Position numbers and translations under genes: made by a program. From contig DRKS01000049.1 of the NCBI GenBank assembly GCA_011051655.1, positions 1 through 64,000 on the forward strand: 64,000 bases of DNA. Direction: 5' to 3'. The stretch comes from Sedimenticola sp. GTDB lineage: Bacteria; Pseudomonadota; Gammaproteobacteria; Chromatiales; Chromatiaceae. Shown piece after piece: positions 4,778 to 53,379 of the stretch (its first letter is position 1; each line of letters begins with the position of its first letter). Under the pieces are notes generated by a model. The model ran no database searches, was not told where the DNA came from, and was given only the letters and a program-made list of their open reading frames with translations.

Positions 4778-7228
4778 GTGTTGGGTCCAGAAGATAAGAG
4801 TTCCGAAGTGATTGCCAAGCCGATGAATACCGCGCCCGTATTGCCGCTGAGAGACGTGGTGGTGTACCCGCACATGGTCATTCCCCTTTTTGTCGGGCGG
4901 GATAAATCCATCAAGGCCCTGGACGCCGCAATGCGGGAGAACAAGCAGATACTGCTGGTGGCCCAGAAGAGTGCGGAAGTGGATGATCCCGGCATGGAAG
5001 ATATGCATGAAATCGGCACGCTGGCCAATATCCTGCAACTGCTGAAGTTGCCCGATGGTACGGTCAAGGTACTGGTGGAGGGCGAGGAGCGTGCCCGGAT
5101 TGTCGAGTTTCTCGCCAACGAGGACTATTTCGTCGCCGAGATCTCGCCCATCCACGAAGGCGCCCAATTGGACGAACGGGAAGAAGAGGTGCTGATGCGC
5201 TCCGCCGTGAGTCTGTTTGATCAGTATGTAAAGCTGAACAAGAAAGTGCCGCCGGAAGTGCTCACCTCTCTCTCCAGCATTGATGATCCCAGCCGCCTTG
5301 CGGATACACTGGCGGCGCATATGTCGTTAAAGCTGGAAGAAAAACAGGAAGTGCTGGAAATGCCGGACGTGCGCGAGCGCCTGGAGCATCTGATGGCGCT
5401 CATGGAGTCGGAAAACGACATCCTGCAAATGGAAAAGCGCATTCGCGGCCGGGTGAAGCAGCAGATGGAGAAGAACCAGCGCGAGTACTATCTCAATGAG
5501 CAGATGAAGGCCATCCAGAAGGAGTTGGGGGAGCTGGAAGAGGCGCCCAACGAAATCGAGGAGATGGCCAACCGGATAGAAAAGGCCGGCATGACCAAGG
5601 AGGCCAAGACCAAGGCCCTGGCGGAGCTGAACAAGCTCAAGCTGATGTCGCCCATGTCCGCCGAGGCCACGGTGGTGCGGAATTATATCGATACCCTGAT
5701 CAACGTCCCGTGGAAGAAGCGCACCAAGATCCGCATGGACCTGGGGGCGGCGGAGGATGTGCTGGAAGCCGATCACTACGGGCTGGACAAGGTCAAGGAG
5801 CGCATCCTCGAATACCTGGCCGTTCAGCAGCGGGTGCGCAAGCTGAAGGGGCCGATCCTTTGCCTTGTGGGCCCGCCGGGCGTGGGCAAGACCTCCCTGG
5901 GAAAATCCATAGCCCGGGCCACCAACCGGAAGTTCGTCCGCATGTCGCTGGGTGGGGTGCGTGACGAGGCCGAGATCCGCGGTCACCGCCGCACCTATAT
6001 CGGCGCCTTGCCCGGCAAGATACTTCAGAATCTCATCAAGGTCGGGACCCGCAATCCGCTGTTTCTGCTGGACGAGATTGACAAGATGGCCATGGATTTC
6101 CGCGGCGACCCCGCATCGGCGTTGCTGGAAGTCCTGGATCCGGAGCAGAACAACACCTTTGCGGACCATTATCTTGAGGTGGATTTCGATTTGTCGGAAG
6201 TCATGTTCGTGGCGACGGCCAACACCCTCAATATCCCGCCGGCGCTGCTGGATCGCATGGAGGTTATTCGTTTGTCCGGTTACACGGAAGACGAAAAGGT
6301 CAATATCGCCCAACGCTACCTGGTGCCCAAGCAGATAGCGAACAACGGCCTGAAGGAGGAGGAACTGCTGATCCGTGAGGCCGCCATTCGGGACATCATA
6401 CGCTATTACACCAGGGAGGCCGGGGTGCGTAACCTGGAGCGCGAGATCGCCAAGATCTGCCGCAAGGTGGTGAAGGAGATATTGCTGACAAAGGGCAAGA
6501 AGCGGATCAACGTGACGCCGGGCAATCTGGAGAAGTTCCTCGGCGTAAAACGGTTTCGCTATGGCCTGGCCGATGAGCATGACCAGGTCGGACAGGTCAC
6601 GGGCCTGGCCTGGACCGAGGTGGGCGGCGAACTGTTGCGCATCGAGACCGCCCTGGTGCCGGGCAAGGGCAAGTTTACCTATACCGGGCAGTTGGGTGAC
6701 GTCATGCAGGAATCCATCCAGGCAGCTACCACGGTGGTGCGCAGCCGTGCCGCGGCGCTGGGCGTGGATGAGGATTTCTATCAGAAATACGACGTTCACA
6801 TCCATGTGCCGGAAGGCGCGACGCCAAAGGACGGCCCCAGCGCCGGCATCGGCATGTGTACGTCCCTGGTTTCAGCGCTGACCCGTATCCCGGTGCGGGC
6901 GGATGTCGCCATGACCGGTGAGATAACGCTGCGAGGCGAGGTGCTTCCAATCGGCGGCCTCAAAGAGAAGCTGCTGGCTGCCCACCGGGGCGGCATCAAC
7001 ACGGTGATCATTCCCCAGGAAAACGAGCGGGATCTCGTGGAGATACCCAGGAATATCAAGAAAAATCTCAATATCCGGCCGGTGCGATGGATAGATGAGG
7101 TACTGGATATCGCCCTGGTCAGGACGCCTGGCATTGACAAAGCCGGCGAGGAGAATTCGTCCGCCAAGTCGAAAGGCGCGGCTTCAGAAACACCTGCTGG
7201 CAAACAGGCCGATCTGACCACCCATTGA
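4778..7228 (+). CDS. lon: ATP-dependent protease Lon
   Basis: This 816-residue protein has the full Lon layout: an N-terminal substrate-recognition domain, a coiled linker around 220-300, an AAA+ module with Walker A GPPGVGKT at about 365-372, and a C-terminal protease with the Ser-Lys dyad S688 ([10 protein letters not shown]) and K731 (GGLKEKLL). It degrades misfolded and regulatory proteins in the cytosol. The start is GTG at 4778, supported by AGGAGA seven bases upstream. It is the fourth gene of the quality-control block and is followed by a terminator-like hairpin, then hupB under its own promoter. Confidence 0.97.
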
Positions 7229-7320
7229 GGAAACCCGGATGAATCCAGGGATGGATTGATCGGCCTCTGAACAACGCCTGGTGCGCGCAAGGGGGCGCGT
7301 ATTTCCGGCGTTTTTTTGAT

Positions 7321-51749: not shown

Positions 51750-52919
51750 TTACAAAGCCCGCAGCGCTTCAGCCAGTTCCCGTAGTCCAATGGCTTCGAG
51801 GTTACCGGAAAGGGGATAGCGATCCTTCCCGGCATGGACCACGAAAGCGCGGGCTGGCCGGATGTCTTCACAGGCGTTGTGGAAGCCGCGTGATACCTTG
51901 GCCGATCTGGCCCGCTTGATCTCAATCGCCCAGATTGATTGGTCGTTATGTTCAATCACAAGATCAATCTCGGCCCCTGCCGATGTGCGATAGAAATAGG
52001 CGGTGCTGCGCCAGGGTAAAACGGAGAGCAATGTTTCGATGACAAAACCCTCCCAACTCATACCGACAATTGGATGGCCGGCAAGCTGTTCAAGGTTTTC
52101 TATGCCAAGCAGCGCGTGCACTAGGCCGCTGTCGCAGACATAGACTTTCGGAGATTTGACCAGGCGTTTGCCGATATTGACATGAAAGGGCTGAAGACGG
52201 CGCACCAGAAGCAGATCGGCCAGCAGATCGATATAGCGCGTAACCGATTGCGTGCTTATTTCCAATGCGCGGCCAAGTTCGGAGGCCCTGAGCATCGCCC
52301 CCTGGCAATGGGCCAGCATGGTCCATAGGCGCTCAAGCGTTGTCGCCGGTATGCGCGGACCGAACATGGGTACGTCGCGTTCGAGATAGGTGCGGATAAA
52401 ATCCTTGCGGATGGCCAGGCTGTCCCGGTCGTTTTCCGCCAGATAGCTGTCGGGGAATCCGCCCCGCAGCCATAAACGCTCGCGGGCCGCGTGGTCGTCC
52501 TCGATCTCAAGCGCGGACAGGGGAGACAAATTGATATAGGCGATTCGTCCGGCCAGGGTTTCCCCGGATTGCCGCAATAGATCAATGGAGGCCGAGCCTA
52601 AAATCAGGAAGCGCCCTTTTCCCTTTTGTTTGCGGCGGCCCTTGTCGATAATGCCGCGCAAAGACTGAAACAGTTCCGGCATGCGATGGATTTCATCCAG
52701 GATAACCAGCCGGTCCTCAACGCTTTCCAGGAACAGAGCCGGGTTTTCAAGCTTATTCCTGTCATCCCGGTCCTCAAGGTCGAGATAGAGCGCATCATGC
52801 TCTTTACCCACTTTAAGCGCCAGTGTCGTTTTCCCGACTTGGCGTGGGCCGATTAGGGCCACAGCCGCCTGACGGCGCATGGCTTCTTTGATCTGTCCTG
52901 TGACTATACGCGGTATCAT
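51750..52919 (-). CDS. AAA ATPase with C-terminal DUF4143 (nuclease-like) domain
   Basis: This 389-residue protein has Walker A GPRQVGKTTLAL (about 24-35), Walker B DRLVILDEIHRMPE and the GSAS sensor region. A winged-helix-like part follows (LRASELGRALEISTQSVTRYIDLL), and then a DUF4143 domain with the PD-(D/E)XK-like motif EIDLVIEHNDQSIWAIEIKRA. This AAA_14/DUF4143 family is widespread, patchily distributed and often on accessory DNA; its cellular role is unknown. Coding looks less GC-biased than in the neighbours. It sits between an intron-like remnant and a duplicated tRNA-Glu, suggesting acquisition. Confidence 0.9.
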   Translation of the reverse strand: MIPRIVTGQIKEAMRRQAAVALIGPRQVGKTTLALKVGKEHDALYLDLEDRDDRNKLENPALFLESVEDRLVILDEIHRMPELFQSLRGIIDKGRRKQKGKGRFLILGSASIDLLRQSGETLAGRIAYINLSPLSALEIEDDHAARERLWLRGGFPDSYLAENDRDSLAIRKDFIRTYLERDVPMFGPRIPATTLERLWTMLAHCQGAMLRASELGRALEISTQSVTRYIDLLADLLLVRRLQPFHVNIGKRLVKSPKVYVCDSGLVHALLGIENLEQLAGHPIVGMSWEGFVIETLLSVLPWRSTAYFYRTSAGAEIDLVIEHNDQSIWAIEIKRARSAKVSRGFHNACEDIRPARAFVVHAGKDRYPLSGNLEAIGLRELAEALRAL

Positions 52920-52995
52920 CCTTGCAATTTATCCACGAATTGGAATAATTGCAAGGTTAGTTTTGGAGAATAAGACCATTACCACCATAATAATC

Positions 52996-53102
52996 CATGT
53001 CGATGAGGTGGCAGGCAAGTGGGTGGGAAATGGTACTCCCTAGGGGAATCGAACCCCTGTTACCGGCGTGAGAGGCCGGCGTCCTGACCGCTAGACGAAG
53101 GG
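52996..53102. repeat. 107-bp direct repeat, copy 1 (with truncated tRNA-Glu)
   Basis: This segment is identical to 53196-53302, exactly 200 bp downstream. It includes 35 bp of flank and almost the whole tRNA-Glu (CUC) body. The copies diverge at 53103 versus 53303, inside the acceptor stem of the tRNA. Confidence 0.95.
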
Positions 53103-53105
53103 GTG
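53031..53105 (-). pseudogene. tRNA-Glu (CUC) pseudogene
   Basis: This copy is identical to the intact tRNA-Glu at 53231-53305 except that the first three acceptor bases read CAC instead of GCT. The 5' strand CACCCCT can no longer pair fully with AGGGAGT. The CCA-coding end is intact. Confidence 0.8.
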
Positions 53106-53195
53106 AGCCGGAATCCTTTGTCCGGTGGACAAAGGAAGTTCGGCGAACGCCCAGCCATGGAGGGCTGGGCCGGGCCCGGGCTACAGGGATGTATT

Positions 53196-53302
53196 CATGT
53201 CGATGAGGTGGCAGGCAAGTGGGTGGGAAATGGTACTCCCTAGGGGAATCGAACCCCTGTTACCGGCGTGAGAGGCCGGCGTCCTGACCGCTAGACGAAG
53301 GG
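53196..53302. repeat. 107-bp direct repeat, copy 2 (with intact tRNA-Glu)
   Basis: This is the second perfect copy of the repeat at 52996-53102. The 93 bp between the copies contain small palindromes (TTTGTCCGGTGGACAAA; CCCAGCC...GGCTGGG) and no gene. Confidence 0.95.
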
Positions 53303-53305
53303 AGC
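53231..53305 (-). tRNA. tRNA-Glu (CUC)
   Basis: On the minus strand, GCTCCCT pairs with AGGGAGT (first pair G-U), followed by A and an encoded CCA. The anticodon arm CCGGC-CTCTCAC-GCCGG presents CUC. The D-arm TCGTCTAGCGGTCAGGAC is typical of tRNA-Glu. Length is 75 nt. It is divergent from pcnB. Confidence 0.9.
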
Positions 53306-53379
53306 AGAGGACCGCGAAGAAATGCTATTATACCCCGCTTAACATCAGTCTCAAGCCGACAGCCGAAGGAAAAAGAAAA

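Follow-up and report, generated by a model that had tools for sequence, protein, structure and literature searches.

The 64-kb stretch of DNA analysed here (the window) carries the greater part of a tRNA-Glu gene twice, and the question it raises is what doubled the gene and what the DNA between the two copies represents. The initial annotation had reported an exact 107-bp tRNA-Glu duplication, offset by 200 bp and reaching 35 bp past the CCA end, and all of this was reproduced: positions 52996-53102 and 53196-53302 are identical at 107/107 bases, extending the exact match adds 0 bases at either end, 35 bp past the CCA are included, and the offset is exactly 200 bp with a spacer of 93 bp. A repeat search of the window scored the same pair as 110 nt at 99%. 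The 107-mer was found at two positions on the plus strand of the window and 0 on the other strand, and chance is excluded.

The duplicated tRNA-Glu gene

The features of the locus are:

52996-53102, minus strand: left-hand copy of the duplication, a 35-bp trailer plus the tRNA pseudogene body, on the far side of the element (sequence identity)
53031-53104, minus strand: tRNA-Glu(CTC) pseudogene, acceptor pairs 1-3 gone (tRNA calling, Rfam tRNA model, acceptor-stem pairs)
53103-53195, plus strand: inserted element E, with a GTGAG start, hairpin 1, GCGAACGCC, hairpin 2 and a CTACAGGGATGTATT end (alignment, model match, DNA fold)
53196-53302, minus strand: right-hand copy of the duplication, part of the intact tRNA gene (107-base identity to 52996-53102)
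53231-53305, minus strand: intact tRNA-Glu(CTC) (tRNA calling, Rfam tRNA model, acceptor-stem pairs)
53327-53354, minus strand: promoter-like site TTGAGA-16-TATAAT upstream of the intact tRNA-Glu (11/12, consensus match only)

Both copies were called as tRNA-Glu(CTC) on the minus strand, with the Rfam tRNA model giving 63.7 bits for the right-hand copy (copy 2) versus 50.5 bits for the left-hand copy (copy 1). The acceptor stem of copy 2 pairs throughout (G1-U72, C-G, U-A, C-G, C-G, C-G, and U-A), the undamaged tRNA 5′ end at 53303-53305 being joined to this copy; in copy 1, pairs 1-3 are mismatched (C-U, A-G, and C-A) and the remaining pairs are intact. The earlier reading that divergence begins in the acceptor stem, leaving copy 2 functional and copy 1 a pseudogene, is upheld by the lost pairs and the lower score. 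The intact gene closes with a G1-U72 pair.

Among relatives, exactly one tRNA-Glu(CTC) was called beside pcnB in 28/29 loci and none in the 29th. Because a single gene is present at 28 of these loci, the 107-bp duplication is derived and the single-copy state ancestral. The relatives searched included no genome of the window's genus that could give the empty site of this locus base for base. The identity of the two 107-bp copies fits a target duplication at insertion.

The AAA/DUF4143 gene noted alongside proved to be real (Pfam PF13635 and PF13173), and no link between it and element E was found. Within 51750-52956 of the window, this AAA_14/DUF4143 gene sits between two tRNA clusters, together with a 16-nt inverted repeat (52920-52956, 88% complementary) that lies just upstream of its start.

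A dispersed two-hairpin element and its targets

The 93 bp between the copies had been measured correctly but taken as what remained of a larger element. They are instead a complete dispersed element with two hairpins, here termed E, and not an island leftover. Searching with the region revealed that the spacer recurs on other contigs of the genome to which the window belongs (G000). Aligned copies share the frame GG-GTGAG-hairpin 1-GCGAACGCC-hairpin 2, often trailed by a short palindrome around CAGGGATG. In the window copy, hairpin 1 lies at about 53107-53144 and hairpin 2 at about 53149-53170; folded as DNA, the copy has a z-score of -4.46 with 0/200 shuffles as stable, and it matches the covariance model at 93.3 bits (E-value 4e-16, the copy itself being in the model's alignment). 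The ends read GTGAG and GTATT, with no terminal inverted repeats apparent by eye, and no Rfam family covers E at the loci scanned.

From the model matches 191 rows were kept, representing 188 distinct copies; repeat entries of one place with a different locus id were left out, as were about 20 tandem matches that were weak or partial. Counts over the 188 copies are not counts of independent events, because many rows stem from orthologous sites or belong to a single array. Judged by the ten commonest strings, the tag at the start of E is GTGAG in at least 152/188 copies and GTAAG in at least 14/188. GG precedes E in 185/188, a figure that depends in part on the model, GG having been built into its start. 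The sequence of hairpin 1 varies and its pairing is kept: a hairpin's own arms pair at -20.6 versus -9.7 kcal/mol for swapped arms, and own arms win in 145/148 unique hairpins, with 32/188 copies not parsable. The smallest elements, in 8 of the 53 rows where the element reaches at least 85 bp, measure 89-96 bp.

The covariance model gave 13 matches at 8 places in the window's own genome. Four of these places are tRNA genes (Glu, Gly-GCC, Gly-CCC, and Gly-TCC), and the end of smpB is another site; upstream of the tRNA-Gly(GCC) gene stand three tandem 146-bp units, each with 19 nt of that tRNA. A loose pattern of E returned 20 matches in this genome compared with 8 for a reversed control, and 9 of the 20 are copies also found by the model. 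Across genomes, E was detected in 16/38, 2/17, and 60/195 of those searched, the last set being genomes of the order; the sets overlap, the window's own genome is counted in the first and third, and absences are soft, with only the best-ranked candidates per genome scored by the model. A pattern scan of named genomes returned at least 118 matching stretches. Lysobacter, Luteimonas, Pseudoxanthomonas, Stenotrophomonas, and Solimonas are among the 80 matches listed, and those listed from distant phyla may be due to chance. E occurs in several families of gammaproteobacteria.

Tandem forms were also observed. Past the E copy at the 3′ end of a gene that we take to be xerD (L050 / G000:C94, near 6968-7284), tandem partial copies about 77 bp apart retain hairpin 2 and the tail. 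At a tRNA-Met gene (L142, 1501-2832, genome G052), seven tandem E units with tRNA-Met prefixes lie on one side and two inverted units on the other.

The targets of E include the genes of tRNA-Gly, Ser, Arg, Met, Phe, Ala, Thr, Gln, and His, as well as tmRNA, TPP riboswitches, and protein genes. Sites in tRNA genes follow one order, in which a tRNA prefix ending in GG is followed by E and then by the complete tRNA, with the breakpoint often in the D-loop but also in the T-stem or on the opposite strand; a tRNA-Glu gene of another genome (G190) matched at the identical junction, GACGAAGGG followed by GTGAG. Among tmRNA sites, one is clear (L157) and one has a degraded prefix (L105). The same succession of prefix, E, and complete unit was found at TPP riboswitches: aptamers above the Rfam cut-off number two in L203, two in L232, three in L251, and one in L181, and at these four loci the aptamer copies are separated by E. 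Some tandem TPP riboswitches may, therefore, be by-products of E insertion.

At protein genes, E was found (i) in this same succession at the start of a gene for what is presumably an ABC transporter ATPase (L162 and L186); (ii) likewise, but antisense, at the end of a presumed ABC-F gene (L166, L206, L210, and L255), both names being drawn from the reading frames; and (iii) abutting the stop codon of other genes, where GG-GTGA reads Gly-stop. An open frame of at least 100 codons ends in the TGA of E in 45/131 non-tRNA copies, the other two phases giving 8 and 2; we take the C-terminal peptides at such sites to be those of SoxY, NusG, XerD, ThiS, and MoaD. The GG-GTGAG junction and the restoring duplication recur at many RNA genes and at some protein genes.

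Target duplications and empty sites

By a score cut-off, a duplication was present at the left junction of E in 75/188 copies. Among these, 53 contain an element of at least 85 bp, and GG closes the restored copy in all of them but three (L134, L140, and L196), or 50/53. Outside tandem arrays the duplication spans 14 to 107 bp, and the window copy (93-bp element, 107 bp duplicated) fits the family, at the long end of this range. Compared with the right flanks of other loci, the duplication beats every comparison in 60/188 copies, namely 36/57 near a tRNA, 5/64 at open frames ending in the TGA of E, and 19/67 others; this test is severe for tRNAs, whose prefixes recur among unrelated loci. Of the five duplicated open-frame cases, one is a tRNA-Met array, two lie at gene starts, one lies within a gene, and the fifth is an unidentified site. 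At gene 3′ ends no clear duplication was seen, and it has either decayed or never formed there.

Filled and empty sites were compared within two genera. At a tRNA-Ser gene in genus g20, the filled genome (G083) reads leader-prefix-element-leader-prefix-rest, and in five congeners (G079, G019, G075, G183, and G080) the site is empty, with leader and tRNA only and 92-97% identity on that side. As computed by script, the gain amounts to a 109-bp element plus a 29-bp duplication ending in GG, or to about 106 + 32 bp if one more mismatch is allowed. This locus shows that the element and the duplication were gained together. A tRNA-Gly locus in genus g56 points the same way: it is filled in G138 and G085, carries a short leader without the element in G077, G056, and G119, and holds remnants of E in G107 and perhaps G055. 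E is, in sum, a dispersed structured repeat with its left end fixed after GG, and its presence or absence differs between congeners. These arrangements are not assembly artefacts, because they are present in single-contig genomes (G083 and G052).

Three tRNA-Gly duplications of the window's own genome begin exactly at tRNA base 1, which is tighter than a duplication of random length predicts. A constant start at precisely the 5′ end of the tRNA, set by an RNA end, was weakened as an idea by the tRNA-Ser case, where the duplication starts 11 to 14 nt upstream according to how many mismatches are tolerated, and by antisense cases, which by eye run 0 to about 70 nt past the CCA.

Origin of the locus and candidate movers

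We consider it very probable that the 107-bp repeat is the target duplication produced by insertion of a 93-bp non-autonomous palindromic element, with the tRNA regenerated in the process. E would have entered the acceptor stem immediately behind a GG (following GACGAAGGG on the strand opposite the tRNA), doubling the 107 bp up to and including this GG. The functional tRNA-Glu would then consist of the right-hand copy plus 53303-53305, and the left-hand copy would be left as the pseudogene. The tRNA-Glu locus probably arose in this one step. E itself would be moved in trans by a separate enzyme, and, because the end at GG is precise and the duplication length variable, we infer a target-primed insertion with template RNA or single-stranded DNA. 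Such an event could start with one strand nicked behind GG and the other strand cut at a distance, E then being copied in from the GG end. Selection would keep insertions in RNA genes only if the duplication spans the whole functional unit, and insertions in protein genes if they fall on a terminal Gly codon. The lack of a clear duplication at protein 3′ ends and the base-1 starts at three tRNA-Gly genes argue against a fully uniform mechanism.

The locus had been interpreted as the footprint of an integrative element, and the class of event was right, as there is an insertion into a tRNA gene with a restoring duplication, but the agent was wrong. tRNA attachment sites typically show an intact tRNA beside a displaced 3′ portion, and both are present here along with a direct repeat that restores the tRNA; nevertheless, a former integrase-bearing island at tRNA-Glu, since lost by deletion except for 93 bp, is extremely unlikely. 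No integrase was found among the 10 proteins scanned at 46-63 kb, the duplication spans nearly the whole tRNA plus 35 bp, and the 93 bp form a whole member of a repeat family whose left end stays the same, and whose size stays similar, at tRNAs unrelated to this one and at tmRNA, TPP riboswitches, and protein genes. A simple tandem duplication of a 200-bp segment with the spacer as ordinary flank would suit the offset of exactly 200 bp, and tandem units with tRNA prefixes do exist in the E family, but it is hardly credible for a pattern of copy-spacer-copy that lacks a second spacer and whose spacer is a dispersed element. For the tRNA-Ser site it is refuted by the five empty relatives, which have neither spacer nor duplication. 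That E is chiefly a regulatory RNA under selection, for example a signal for processing or termination, and owes its spread to function and not to mobility, would agree with the compensatory variation of hairpin 1 and with recurrent sites between what are presumably nusG-rplK, soxY-soxZ, and thiS-thiG and after xerD (names taken from peptides). This is rather improbable, as the presence of E differs between congeners at tRNA-Ser and tRNA-Gly and insertion with duplication is a signature of mobility.

Another reading makes E a REP-like palindrome whose mover is a RAYT (Y1) transposase that acts in trans or has since been lost. GTAG REPs have been described as short palindromes with a conserved unpaired tag, common in gammaproteobacteria and mostly beside gene 3′ ends, the tag often supplying the stop codon of the upstream ORF (PMC3733652). 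E resembles them in being a small palindrome beside gene 3′ ends whose unpaired tag at one end gives the upstream stop codon. It differs in that its tag is GTGAG and not GTAG, in measuring about 93 bp with two hairpins versus a single palindrome of 20-40 bp, in its long target duplications that rebuild RNA genes, and in the count of 0 Y1 (RAYT) in the window's own genome at 95.8% completeness. Y1 transposases were not found in three E-bearing genomes (G000, G138, and G044), and 14 were found in G022, where E was not detected. The Y1 counts of 12 genomes with E (0, 2, 3, 2, 3, 5, 6, 2, 11, 0, 0, and 3) and 8 without detected E (1, 0, 0, 5, 1, 14, 1, and 4) do not track E, and a RAYT-driven REP was set aside; long target duplications are not known from Y1 transposition. 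The RAYT route is, thus, doubtful. MITEs, ERIC, and Correia elements are small, non-autonomous, and hairpin-forming; unlike these, E has no terminal inverted repeats by eye, and its duplication of 14 to 107 bp contrasts with the short, fixed length in MITEs. Overall, E behaves as a mobile REP-like palindrome would, but does not qualify as a REP/RAYT or MITE.

Eukaryotic SINE-like retroposons have one precise end, one variable end, and a variable target duplication, and E is comparable in how it works, with a variable target duplication and one precise end. We tentatively raise the possibility that E is a bacterial SINE-like retroposon, a structured RNA copied by reverse transcriptase onto a nicked GG-3′ end, in which staggered second-strand cutting would yield the long duplication that rebuilds a tRNA, tmRNA, or riboswitch. 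If so, the tandem riboswitches and tRNA-fragment arrays of these bacteria would be by-products. Among clusters of the 3431 ORFs within 2.5 kb of E copies (clusters spanning at least 4 loci, 45 of them at most), no shared transposase that could mark an autonomous version was seen by eye; plasmid and phage collections gave no match to E and viral contigs 0 exact pattern matches. Possible resemblances to hammerhead, HDV, attC, and group II introns were considered and set aside.

A literature search, including by the sequence words of E, found no description of it in titles and abstract openings, with few subscription papers covered. An essential RNA gene present as a single copy is a place where mobile elements should be kept out or selected against, yet E enters such genes time and again without apparent loss, since each insertion brings the repair with it. 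The pseudo-tRNAs, tandem tRNA fragments, and tandem TPP riboswitches of these genomes can be explained by E, whose mover is a concrete target to look for.

The RtT repeats of the Escherichia coli tyrT operon (RF00391, seen in L500) also lie next to a tRNA gene and contain part of it in their units; that part, however, is the tRNA 3′ end, and the RtT junction is not GG-GTGAG. Membership of RtT in the E family was rejected, as the E model reached at best 5.3 bits (E-value 0.72) in the whole L500 stretch and 3.8 bits in the repeats, and E in the window has no RF00391 match at E-values up to 1. In the window's own genome, an RtT-like sequence lies just past tmRNA (L053, 2909-3035; 41.8 bits against an RF00391 cut-off of 45), and half an E ends smpB upstream of it.
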